38,510 bases of DNA from Alphaproteobacteria bacterium GWC2_42_16 (GTDB lineage Bacteria > Pseudomonadota > Alphaproteobacteria > UBA9655): positions 1 through 38,510 of the forward strand of contig MEMA01000002.1 in the NCBI GenBank assembly GCA_001767835.1. Direction: 5' to 3'. Each line of letters opens with the position of its first letter. The stretch's first letter is position 1. The notes below the pieces were generated by a model. That model was not told the DNA's origin. It saw nothing but the letters and a program-made list of their open reading frames with translations, and did not search any database. This document shows positions 3,561 to 11,891 of this stretch, piece after piece. The position numbers and the translations under genes are program-made.

Positions 3561-4856
3561 CTAAGAGGCCTTAGCGTAAGCGTACCCTTCTTCTTGTGGC
3601 TCAGTCTTAGCCGTAAACTTACCAAATTCACTTCGCCCAAACTTAAGGCTTATTAATCCTAAAAGGCTAGCAAACATAAGATAATAAGCCGGGGTATAGG
3701 GAGAATCATGCCATGCATTGAGGGTCGCGATGATCACAGGAGTAGTGCCCCCCAAAAGCGCGCCCCCTAGGGCATATCCAAACCCTATGCCGCTATACCT
3801 CTCATGCACAGGGAAATAAGTTGTCAGAAGGGGCATTATAGGAGGAACAAAGGCAACATTGAGGGCTGCTATGACAAATTGGACAAATATAACGTTACCT
3901 AAACAAAAATTATTTTTTAGGAAGTAAAATAGGGGCAAGGCAAGCAAAAAAGTAAGCAAGGCTGCTTTCTTCATTTGGTTTTCTTTTCCTATTTTATCCG
4001 CAAGCTGTCCCATGAATGGCATAAAGAGAACTATGAAAGCCGCAAGAGCTGTATTAATTATCATAATTTCGGGGGTTGTGATGTGAAGTTTAGACCCCAT
4101 TAAAAACCCCATATAGATTGTTGCCAGATAAAGAGGAATTAAAGAAGTTGCCCCAATGCCTATTGTACAAAGAAGATTAATTTTTCTGTTCTCCAATACA
4201 CCCCACAAAGGAACTTTTTCGCTCTTTTCATCTTTCGCTCTTTCAAACTCAGGACTTTCATTAACTCGCGTCCGAATATAATAGCCCAAAACTCCCATAA
4301 AACTTCCAATAATAAAAGGAATGCGCCACCCCCACACTGGCATAAAAGAAAGGGTGCAAAGAAATCCGCAGAAGGTTCCCAAAACGCCACCAAAGCTTCC
4401 TGAAGCCGTCAGGATGCTTCCTGCAAAACATTCCTTTCCTTTTTTTGAGTACTCAATCACAAAGATGGAGGCTCCACTATACTCTCCCCCAACGCAAAGG
4501 CCTTGGAGCAAACGACAACTTAGCAAAATAATAGGAGCTGCAATCCCTATTTCTGCATAAGTGGGGAGCAACCCAATCGTTAACGTAGGGATAGTAACAA
4601 AGAAAATGGATAAAACTAAGGCATAGCGGCGTCCGAACTTATCACCCAAATGCCCAAAAACTAATCCGCCTACAGGACGCATCACAAACCCAGCAGCAAA
4701 TGTTCCTAAGCTTGAAATATAGGAGACCGTTTGATTATCAGATGGGAAAAAAAGGGGCGCTAACATTGTTGCAAAAAAACCGTAGAGCATAACATCGTAA
4801 TACTCTAAGGTATTCCCAGTCATTGCAGCTAGAATAGCTTTATAGTTTTTTTTCAT
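3561..4856 (-). CDS. MHS-family MFS transporter (metabolite:H+ symporter)
   Basis: This 431-residue protein has about 12 membrane segments. The N-terminal GNTLEYYDVMLYGFFA and the loop motif GHLGDKFGRRYAL (MFS motif A) are typical of the metabolite:H+ symporter family, which includes ProP, KgtP and ShiA. Members import zwitterions, dicarboxylates or similar small solutes with protons; the substrate here is not deducible. The start at 4856 is preceded by a GGGGGATG ribosome-binding site. It is divergent from the LysR regulator at 5221, with a structured minus-strand RNA candidate in between that ends about 130 bp before this gene. A homologous transporter lies at 7832-9136. Confidence 0.88.
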   Translation of the reverse strand: MKKNYKAILAAMTGNTLEYYDVMLYGFFATMLAPLFFPSDNQTVSYISSLGTFAAGFVMRPVGGLVFGHLGDKFGRRYALVLSIFFVTIPTLTIGLLPTYAEIGIAAPIILLSCRLLQGLCVGGEYSGASIFVIEYSKKGKECFAGSILTASGSFGGVLGTFCGFLCTLSFMPVWGWRIPFIIGSFMGVLGYYIRTRVNESPEFERAKDEKSEKVPLWGVLENRKINLLCTIGIGATSLIPLYLATIYMGFLMGSKLHITTPEIMIINTALAAFIVLFMPFMGQLADKIGKENQMKKAALLTFLLALPLFYFLKNNFCLGNVIFVQFVIAALNVAFVPPIMPLLTTYFPVHERYSGIGFGYALGGALLGGTTPVIIATLNAWHDSPYTPAYYLMFASLLGLISLKFGRSEFGKFTAKTEPQEEGYAYAKAS

Positions 4857-4984
4857 AAGATAACATCCCCCGCTGTAAATTGTTATCGTGTTATTTTAAT
4901 GATATATTACAATTAAGAATCTATTATTCAACAGAAAAATGTTTTCTCCTCCGATTTAGTCATCGTAAAGCAAGTAGCCTACAT

Positions 4985-5113
4985 AAAAAATGCCTGCGAC
5001 CCTCTTTTTAATGGATCACAGGCAATAGAAAAACAACTAAACTAATATTTTAATGTTTACAGAGAGGAGTGGGAGGCAATCCTCTCTGCGGTTCCTATCC
5101 AAAGATAGAAACC
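4985..5113 (-). ncRNA. candidate small RNA or structured leader with anti-Shine-Dalgarno loop
   Basis: Read on the minus strand this segment folds into three successive hairpins. The first pairs GGTTTCTATC with GATAGGAACC (5104-5113 and 5090-5099, one mismatch). The second has a perfect 8-bp stem AGAGAGGA/TCCTCTCT (5061-5087) whose 11-nt loop contains GCCTCCCAC. After an AT-rich linker the third pairs TGCCTGTGA with TCGCAGGCA (4991-5024), followed by a six-T tract (4985-4990), so it looks like an intrinsic terminator. The layout, the CCUCCC loop that could pair with ribosome-binding sites, and the adjacent divergent LysR gene recall the AbcR (alpha-r15) RNAs controlled by LysR proteins VtlR/LsrB. 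That comparison is from memory and only architectural. The alternative is an attenuator in the leader of the transporter at 3561-4856. Confidence 0.45.
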
Positions 5114-5124
5114 CTTACAAAAGA

Positions 5125-5140
5125 GGTCTTAATGTTGACC
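5125..5140. promoter_or_regulatory. dyad, possible LysR-type operator
   Basis: GGTC (5125-5128) and GACC (5137-5140) form an inverted repeat with an 8-bp AT-rich spacer. It lies directly upstream of the predicted small-RNA 5' end and about 80 bp before the LysR start, where a shared regulator site would be expected. A TTGACC hexamer overlapping it (5135-5140) with TTAAAA at 5157-5162 could be the LysR promoter. Confidence 0.35.
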
Positions 5141-5220
5141 AATATGAGATGATAGGTTAAAAAAAACAATGGGTCAACCAACAATTTAAAAATTCAATAT
5201 CGAAAATATGGATATTAGCT

Positions 5221-6156
5221 ATGAGAATGAAGTCTATCTACGTCTATGTCAAGCTTACAGAGGCTAATTGTGATTTTAACGTGCACAAAGTCCTAGGAAT
5301 TCCCCGCTCTTCCATGTGGTCCTATATTTCTGATTTAGAAAAAAGTTTAGGGAAAAAGCTCATTAACAGAAAAAAACAAGGCTTATCTTTTACGGCTGCA
5401 GGGGAAGAATTTATCCCTTTTGCTTATAAAATTTACCAGACCTATGAGGAAAGCTTAATGAGCACAAACGAGGTTACTGACGCTCCTATTGGTGGAGATA
5501 TCCTCGTTTCTGCAACAACCGCTTTGGCATTCCAGTGGACATCCCTAAAAGTTCTTCAAAACTTATACAATGAACATCCTAATTTACGACTTCATATCAC
5601 ATCTTCCGATACAATCACCCGTGATGAAGAAAATGCCGCTGATGTTTTAATTCGCCCCTTTGGTGATTCAGAAAACTTTATTAAGATTTGGTCCATCAAA
5701 TACCACCACGGGTTGTTTGCAAGTAAGGAATATCTTAAAAAATGGGGAACGCCTCAGTCCCCTGCAGATCTCTTAAATCACCAAATAATTGGTTTTGGCG
5801 AACATGTTTTTAGTTATTTTAATGATATTAACTGGCATCTGAAGGGTCAAGGATATGGCATTCCAAAGCTTAAGCCAAGTTTTACAATAAACTCTACAAA
5901 GGCGATCTATGCTGCTGCGGAAATTAATTTGGGAATCTGTTCCGCAGCCCTTGAAGCCAATCGTGCCTATAAAGGCACTCTTATCAGGGTTCTTCCCGAA
6001 ATTACTGGGCCAGTCATCCAAACCCATTTTTGTATCAAAACGAATGCAACAGGACGTAAGCTAAGAAACATACTTATCTTTAGCTCCTATTTTGAAAAAT
6101 ATTTAAAACAGGTGGGCATCGATGTCTCACATATTGAAAATAGGGAGAAAGATTAA
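5221..6156 (+). CDS. LysR-type transcriptional regulator
   Basis: The gene encodes 311 residues. An N-terminal winged helix-turn-helix (about residues 5-65, with VLGIPRSSMWSYISDLEKSL in the recognition region and LSFTAAGEEF at its end) is followed by a periplasmic-binding-like effector domain. The first helix is diverged from the usual form but the overall pattern is retained. It is transcribed away from the MHS transporter at 3561-4856 and from the candidate small RNA, the classical arrangement for a LysR protein and its target. The second LysR protein in the window (10041-10994) shares the local motif NWHL after a (I/L)IxFGxH segment, so the two are likely related. The inducer is unknown. 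Confidence 0.88.
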   Translation: MRMKSIYVYVKLTEANCDFNVHKVLGIPRSSMWSYISDLEKSLGKKLINRKKQGLSFTAAGEEFIPFAYKIYQTYEESLMSTNEVTDAPIGGDILVSATTALAFQWTSLKVLQNLYNEHPNLRLHITSSDTITRDEENAADVLIRPFGDSENFIKIWSIKYHHGLFASKEYLKKWGTPQSPADLLNHQIIGFGEHVFSYFNDINWHLKGQGYGIPKLKPSFTINSTKAIYAAAEINLGICSAALEANRAYKGTLIRVLPEITGPVIQTHFCIKTNATGRKLRNILIFSSYFEKYLKQVGIDVSHIENREKD

Positions 6157-10040: not shown

Positions 10041-10994
10041 TTATTTTACACCTTTCTTGAGTTCTGGAGTTGGAGAACCATAATCCCGAATAAACGCTTC
10101 TTCCAAATAGTTTTGAAAGACCATAACCTTTTTAGAATTTTCCAAGGCCTTCGGATAAAAGAAAAAAGATTTGACTGTAGGAGCAGGAATATCAGAAAGG
10201 ACTTGAACCAAACCTGAGTTGTCAAGGCCAGGATGTTCTTTCGAAAGAGCAATAATTCCAAGAGAAGCTTGAGCCATTTCAAGTCGTGCTTGAGGAGAGT
10301 TAATCTGAAGAAAGGGCTCTCGTATTACTCCCGGCTCCGTCCCCAGCGTGAGGTGCCAGTTCATTCCCTTAAAACCTTCTGCATCTGGATGATTTCCAAA
10401 GGCAATGAGATGATGATGATCGAGGTCCTCTGGGTGCTTTGGAGTACCAAACTCCTGAAGATACTGTGGACTTGCATAAAGTCCGACGGAATTCGTAAGT
10501 AAATGCTTTTGTATGAGATCTTCTGCCTCGCTAGAAGGAATTGGGGGACGGATGACGATATGGGCTTCTCCAAATTCAAGGGAGGGAATACCATCATTAG
10601 AGATAAGTGTTAGCCGTATATCAGGATAGCTCTTTAAAAACCCGGGAATATAAGGAAGGATATAGTGGGTAAGTAACCCTGCGGCAGCGATGACCCTTAA
10701 TGGTCCTTTGGGTTTTTTTTCTTCTTCATAAAGTTTTTCTGTCGCTGTTTCCATCTCGTTCAAAAAGCGTCCGATAATAGGAACAAGGACTTTCCCCTGG
10801 GCGGTTAAGGTAAGCCCACGTGGATGGCGATAAAACAATTTAAGACATAGACGATCTTCAAGAAGCTGAATACTGCGGCTAAGAGCAGACTGGCTCACAT
10901 TTAAAAGCTCAGCTGCAGTAGTAAACTTTTCTGCTTTGGCAACGTAATAGAAAACTTTCAACTTATCGAAATCGAGGTTCCATCTTTTTTTCAT
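10041..10994 (-). CDS. LysR-type transcriptional regulator
   Basis: The gene encodes 317 residues. The N-terminal helix-turn-helix is canonical: FYYVAKAEKFTTAAELLNVS then QSALSRSIQLLEDRL and a GLTLTAQG wing. The C-terminal part is the usual two-lobed effector-binding domain, ending in a lysine-rich tail. It lies upstream of, and on the same strand as, the methyltransferase-transporter pair with a short gap, so it may be part of that transcription unit or its regulator. It shares the motif MNWHL and the segment HLIAFGNH with the other LysR protein at 5221-6156, which also sits beside an MHS transporter. Confidence 0.92.
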   Translation of the reverse strand: MKKRWNLDFDKLKVFYYVAKAEKFTTAAELLNVSQSALSRSIQLLEDRLCLKLFYRHPRGLTLTAQGKVLVPIIGRFLNEMETATEKLYEEEKKPKGPLRVIAAAGLLTHYILPYIPGFLKSYPDIRLTLISNDGIPSLEFGEAHIVIRPPIPSSEAEDLIQKHLLTNSVGLYASPQYLQEFGTPKHPEDLDHHHLIAFGNHPDAEGFKGMNWHLTLGTEPGVIREPFLQINSPQARLEMAQASLGIIALSKEHPGLDNSGLVQVLSDIPAPTVKSFFFYPKALENSKKVMVFQNYLEEAFIRDYGSPTPELKKGVK

Positions 10995-11366
10995 CTTAGT
11001 CGAACCATTTTTTGTGCCTTCGTCTCATTTTGATCATAGAAGCACCTATTTTCAAAAAGATCCTTTTTATTGCAATTTATAATTTCACTTGCTTTTTTCA
11101 AACTCGCTCTTTTATTAACATGGGGAAAACAAAAATTCTCTTATATAGATAACTTTATTTTTATACCCAAAGCACCCTCAACTTCAATTCTTTTTTTATT
11201 GAACAATTCAAACCAAAGGGCATTCCTGGCTTTAAAAGAAAAATGAAAGTTCATTATACCTTTCCCCGATAAAAGCTATGCCACTATTCTATTGGAAAGT
11301 AGTCTAAAGATTTGGTGAAATAAAAGTACTTAGGCGTTTCAAGAGTAGCTATAAGGAGAAAGAGTG
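10995..11366. other. AT-rich divergent intergenic region
   Basis: No gene is recognised. The region separates the minus-strand LysR gene from the plus-strand gene at 11367 and should hold both promoters. It contains a perfect 13-bp palindrome, TTGAACAATTCAA (11199-11211), of the kind bound by LysR proteins, and the AAGGAGA ribosome-binding site of the next gene (11353-11359). Confidence 0.45.
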
Positions 11367-11891
11367 ATGTTCAACAATGTTCTATATCCTCACCTCGATT
11401 TAAACAACAAAAACCCAGGAATGCGTTTTATAAAGGTTCCTATCTTTCAAAAAGGCATAAAGAAACCTTCCTTCACCATAAAGAAAACAGCGAAAAAGCC
11501 ACCTCATTCAGAGTTTCCTCCAAGTGCAGGAAGATTGTTTACGAAAGGGAGTTATTCTAAGGAGGAGTTTTCTTATAAACCCTCTCAAAGAGATGATCGC
11601 CTCAACCACAAAGCACAACAATGCCTTGCTTGCATTGACGATCCCTTATGGAAGGAGGTATGCGCAGAAGTTTTAAGGATGATGCCTCCCCTATTCCTTT
11701 TAAAATTATGGGAGAGCCAATTAGGACATTTATCTTCTCAAAAACAGGTTGTTGATCTTTATTGTCCAACAAAAGACGTGGCTCAATTTACGAAAGCTTA
11801 TGATTTTGTCATATTAGGAAGTCTTCAAAAGTACTTTCCAGCTCTCAAACAAATTAGAGTTAAAGTCAAGTCTGCGCCTCAAAAAGTTTAA
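11367..11891 (+). CDS. uncharacterised protein with a DnaA-N-like C-terminal domain
   Basis: The gene encodes 174 residues. The ATG at 11367 lies 7 nt from AAGGAGA; a GTG directly before it is less well spaced. The first 80 residues are basic, proline-containing and probably unstructured. From about residue 85 the pattern [20 protein letters not shown] then [21 protein letters not shown] and [16 protein letters not shown] resembles the N-terminal protein-interaction domain of the initiator DnaA (DnaA_N), where a tryptophan, a helical pair and a beta-strand with PT/PN precede a helix. No AAA+ or DNA-binding domain is present. If the similarity holds, it could interact with DnaB or a DnaA regulator; this is a fold-level guess. 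Confidence 0.55.

Follow-up and report, generated by a model that had tools for sequence, protein, structure and literature searches.

A candidate small RNA gene with an anti-Shine-Dalgarno loop beside a divergent LysR gene, and its putative multi-copy family in an alphaproteobacterial genus

The locus examined here raises the question of what is encoded between a gene for a LysR-type regulator of 311 aa (5221..6156, plus strand) and a gene for an MHS-type metabolite/H+ symporter (3561..4856, minus strand), both of which lie within the window--that is, within the whole stretch of 38,510 nucleotides that was analysed. LysR regulators driving anti-Shine-Dalgarno small RNAs are known from a few model bacteria; in enterobacteria, the GcvA-GcvB and OxyR-OxyS pairs each consist of a LysR-type gene with a divergent small RNA gene. 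The explanation favoured here, and considered quite probable as a whole, is that the intergenic region carries a gene for a trans-encoded regulatory RNA, which is paired with the divergent LysR gene and belongs to a genus-wide, multi-copy family.

The putative small RNA gene occupies 4985..5142 on the minus strand (predicted transcript, ~155 nt), where its start, near 5142, is placed ~7 nt past the -10 element from the position of a sigma70-type promoter at 5177-5149. This promoter is consensus-like (TTGACC at 5177-5172, N17, TATCAT at 5154-5149), and TTGACA is conserved in relatives. The predicted folding energy of a 201-nt stretch is -69.1 kcal/mol, whereas its shuffled versions average -41.5 (z -6.6), and 0 of 200 shuffles reach the native value. 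The original prediction had described three minus-strand hairpins in a row, the last with a T tract, and all of them are present both in the sequence and in the fold: SL1 (5113-5090; 10 bp, UUUG loop), SL2 (5089-5059; 10 bp, arms GCAGAGAGGA/UCCUCUCUGU, with support from the fold and from family covariation) and SL3 (5024-4991; 12 bp), which together with the T6 tract that follows (4990-4985) forms an intrinsic terminator (4985..5024). The 11-nt anti-Shine-Dalgarno loop is likewise found where it had been proposed: the loop of SL2 (5079-5069) reads UUGCCUCCCAC, a predicted seed whose GCCUCC core is conserved in relatives, and the divergent LysR gene is in place at 5221-6156. A GGTC-N8-GACC dyad, which had been placed just upstream, does occur (5125-5140), but it falls inside the predicted transcript; because it begins ~2 nt past the predicted start site, it is better read as the 5' hairpin of the RNA (SL0, GGUC-N8-GACC, minus strand), which is followed by the invariant UCUUUUGUA and which takes the form GGUCA/UGACC in relatives.

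Among 39 relatives searched, four that form a clade with the window genome (G003, G006, G010 and G011) carry the same element between orthologous MHS and LysR genes. In SL1 nearly all letters have changed between these relatives, and the stem still forms when each genome is folded alone; in the loop of SL2 all four have GCCUCCA, where the window has UUGCCUCCCAC. For the five clade sequences the covariation term of RNAalifold is not favourable and the arms of SL1 slip in register, so that the case for the stems within the clade rests on the individual folds. A hand alignment of ten genomes (in which the G009 row is out of register) reveals G-C/A-U and A-U/G-C exchanges in SL2. The alignment across related genomes that had been proposed as a check thus returned stems that are re-paired despite sequence change, with the loop core kept, and at the level of comparative sequence analysis the observation is confirmed: a discrete, structured RNA whose anti-Shine-Dalgarno loop is conserved and which goes together with a divergent LysR gene.

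Some coding features accompany the RNA in its relatives. A protein of ~197 aa (MLKLIEP...) is encoded beside LysR, on the divergent side, in five genomes (L026, L027, L030, L031 and L032), and neither of the two copies tested has a Pfam match. A short open frame that begins M..N.LIKYFDK.VYKN occurs upstream of LysR1 orthologues at L026 (G004), L027 (G002) and L028 (G013) and passes through the RNA hairpins in two genomes; it may encode a small protein or reflect a stretch of RNA that these loci have in common. Another short frame (GTG/ATG-TSFVG...), found in four relatives, was rejected, there being no start codon in the window.

How the RNA might be controlled is suggested by a predicted LysR-type box, ATATCC-N7-CGATATT (5196..5215, minus strand), which lies 37 nt upstream of the -35 element at a spacing that is near-fixed across orthologues. 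Upstream of 14 of the 15 LysR copies compared (a set that takes in paralogues), ATATCC or a close variant (ATATCG in G001) stands at a near-constant distance from the TTGAC of the divergent promoter--typically 37 nt, and 36 nt in G014, while in G009 TTGAC stands at 45 nt and an earlier TTGAA at 32 nt; only upstream of the LysR gene in G013 is the box absent. The distance from the box to the start codon of LysR is variable. When box and spacing are combined into a strict pattern, 9 of 17 genomes each contain exactly one match, always at the LysR-RNA locus, and the reversed control contains none. Because the spacing is fixed relative to the RNA promoter, this suggests that LysR activates that promoter through the predicted box. 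A looser, fixed-spacing pattern (ATAYC-N8-CKAWA), written after inspection of these same sequences, is present upstream of 11 of 36 family loci against an expected 0.08, including one locus (L188) that looks like chance; the window RNA has it too (5196-5215). This pattern performed better than a weight matrix derived from the LysR1 boxes, by which only 5 of 33 other loci score above the 95th percentile of shuffles.

The wider family became apparent through hairpins with the loop UUUAGCCUCCCUAA, which were found beside other LysR genes and at further places. Seven of these, none of them from the window clade (and one of them, G009d, adjoining a LysR1 orthologue), were used to build a covariance model, R2. 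In its seed alignment, which is unfitted, both partners have changed in 7 pairs (0 of 500 shuffles). At E <= 0.1 the model yields 38 matches, which fall at 37 distinct places; the 11 genomes that carry them, out of 17 in the order, all belong to one genus, and the largest number of RNA copies in a single genome is ten (in G009). All 16 pairs show changes on both sides among 45 distinct aligned rows (0 of 500 shuffles), an alignment that is fitted to R2 and in which a few rows are the same hairpin read from the opposite strand. With these opposite-strand rows left out, every member has a motif of the CCUCC/CUCCC type, either in the SL2 loop or, for four members, in the linker that follows directly, a count that is favoured by the sequence component of R2 and by selection by pattern. 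A search with R2 over 240 genomes of the class gave no match, although its filters were strict and could have passed over weak members.

The window RNA is the sole R2 match in the window, but a weak one (17.7 bits, rough E 0.26), which is uncounted at E <= 0.1. Its membership is therefore bridged by the syntenic copies in G014 and G002, which are detected by R2 and by a further model, R1, alike; on this basis the window copy is probably a divergent member of the family. An R1 match in another genome (G000:C52, E 0.77) was set aside, no comparable anti-Shine-Dalgarno hairpin being found there by eye. Of the 37 places, 13 have an LsrB-like LysR gene no more than 800 nt away (12 of them divergent), against an expected 0.39; since this statistic assumes an independence that the copies do not have, its P value is indicative only. 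Many other family copies lie near MHS genes, a tendency to which no background frequency is attached. In many members (L154-L171) a GU-rich stretch, UUGGUGGUGGUUUUUGUUGUU, stands 5' of SL1, and a similar stretch follows SL2 in the window clade; possibly it is a second pairing region.

With respect to known systems, the arrangement of a divergent LysR-type gene and a small RNA is like that of GcvA-GcvB and OxyR-OxyS, although the window RNA has no Rfam match to those RNAs and the window LysR falls under the NCBIfam cut-off for GcvA (47 versus 288 bits). The likeness to AbcR1 and AbcR2 (ar15) of the Rhizobiales, which with LsrB/VtlR had served as the model for the locus, extends to an LTTR activator, a LysR-linked RNA in an alphaproteobacterium, three hairpins and a CUCCCA-type anti-Shine-Dalgarno seed, which in the window RNA is present in the unpaired loop UUGCCUCCCAC. 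Kinship with AbcR, in contrast, finds no support: the Rfam covariance search that had been proposed gave no match of ar15 (RF02345) to the window RNA, even at E = 10, and nothing over the cut-off when 190 genomes of the class, among them the window genome, were searched; moreover, the LysR protein is not an LsrB/VtlR orthologue and its predicted binding box is another one. The VtlR box, GCAT-N3-TG-N3-T (PMC7486931), does not occur between 5140 and 5221. Similarly, ar14/NfeR1 of Sinorhizobium meliloti has variable stems with conserved, unpaired anti-Shine-Dalgarno motifs and is activated by LsrB (PMC10746234), but it carries CCUCCUCCC in each of three hairpins, whereas the window RNA has a single GCCUCC(C) loop (some relatives have the motif also in the linker) and no Rfam match. 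Because VtlR, the Agrobacterium counterpart of LsrB, activates AbcR1 (PMC7486931) and LsrB activates NfeR1 (PMC10746234), the resemblance in mode of action is nonetheless meaningful.

Against all of Rfam the window RNA gave no family at the gathering threshold or at E <= 10 beyond chance matches (AgvB, enod40 and others), and fifteen family loci gave no ar family. The sole match from these loci, a sub-threshold one to the SymR antitoxin RNA (L126:1033-1105; 40 bits against a cut-off of 61), lies elsewhere, near a LysR-linked copy in G007. As for the regulator, among solved structures it is closest to 9HH1, A. tumefaciens LsrB. In a search with an LsrB fragment, however, other LTTRs of the genome score up to 174 bits and the window LysR 74, and of the genes found only one paralogue scores lower. 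A. tumefaciens LsrB is nearer to at least six further LysR genes in this genome, and orthology with LsrB/VtlR was rejected because these score much higher. Judged by these scores, the window LysR is a diverged relative of LsrB and not its orthologue. By its anatomy, then, the RNA resembles AbcR, NfeR1 and GcvB and is a candidate LysR-switched, trans-acting anti-Shine-Dalgarno RNA; its family appears to be undescribed, matching none of the described Rfam families, whereas the type of arrangement is already known.

A discrete RNA gene has to be weighed against transcription attenuation by a 5' leader of the MHS gene downstream, with SL3 as the attenuator and SL2 as an alternative structure. Such a leader would fit the co-direction of RNA and MHS gene across a gap of 128 nt (from T tract to start codon), an order kept in the four clade relatives, and the different co-directed gene, for the ~197-aa protein, that follows the RNA in G002, G004 and G005. 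In G014, however, the RNA has the LysR gene on one side and a convergent MHS gene on the other, and more generally the downstream gene varies by lineage (MHS, the 197-aa protein, others) while LysR and the box stay. Within the window no leader peptide is kept and the MHS gene has a candidate promoter of its own (TTGAAT-N16-TAATAT, 4904..4931, minus strand), similar in clade relatives as compared by eye, so that it is probably transcribed separately from the RNA. The convergent gene in G014 and this candidate promoter make attenuation unlikely, and the module of LysR and discrete RNA that the original prediction had preferred is upheld by the G014 arrangement, the conserved loop and the constancy of LysR and box.

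It is improbable, too, that the RNA serves two purposes--as a LysR-regulated RNA regulator and, by read-through in some lineages, as the 5' end of the downstream gene--since the downstream gene in the window has its own promoter-like site and G014 is without a co-directed gene within reach. In G005, however, a few tens of nt separate the end of the terminator from the start of the 197-aa gene, so that a leader role is possible there, and in G006 a LysR paralogue with the same box and promoter stands directly before a gene, the RNA being absent. Many copies per genome (those of G009 above all) would also be expected of a mobile or repeat hairpin (REP-like) with no regulatory function. This is very improbable: the stems diverge among copies yet pairing is kept, the copies share a multi-hairpin anatomy and promoter boxes, and the CCUCC-type motif is kept in the loop or the adjacent linker.

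For the preferred reading--a trans-encoded RNA regulator paired with LysR--the following mechanism is proposed. LysR would bind the ATATCC-N7-CGATATT box, which lies ~65 nt upstream of where the RNA starts, and, when bound, would switch on the sigma70 promoter, as the position and conservation of these elements suggest for both steps. The ~155-nt transcript is predicted to fold into the 5' hairpin, SL1, SL2 and the terminator, with which covariation in relatives is consistent. SL2 would then offer GCCUCC(C) to the Shine-Dalgarno sequences of target mRNAs, and pairing, probably with Hfq (for which the window genome has a gene, as do 16 of the 17 genomes of the order), would block their translation. 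Metabolite transporters may be among the targets, which is the weakest step: a scan of the window genome for GGGAGGC-N-ATG found 20 sites, where the reversed pattern gave 8; most of the 20 do not mark a gene start and none belongs to a transporter, and the ribosome site of the adjacent MHS gene is not a convincing pairing partner for the loop.

The window contains a second LysR gene (10041-10994) with a divergent gene for a 175-aa protein (11364-11891), a homologue of which adjoins the LysR1-linked RNA copy in G009 (L036). A second LysR-RNA module was rejected here, the gap beside this LysR gene being without a structured RNA (fold z +1.4).

The arrangement of a LysR gene with an anti-Shine-Dalgarno RNA is thus now seen in an uncultivated alphaproteobacterial lineage, as what appears to be an undescribed RNA family. 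Copies pair with several LysR paralogues and provide a natural series for how regulator-RNA modules duplicate and divide their targets. It is proposed tentatively, at somewhat short of an even chance, that the genus has undergone a radiation whose LysR paralogues each drive an anti-Shine-Dalgarno RNA paralogue of their own, as parallel switches over an expanded set of MHS transporters; if so, these organisms would operate many parallel regulator-RNA switches, with up to ten RNA copies in a single genome.
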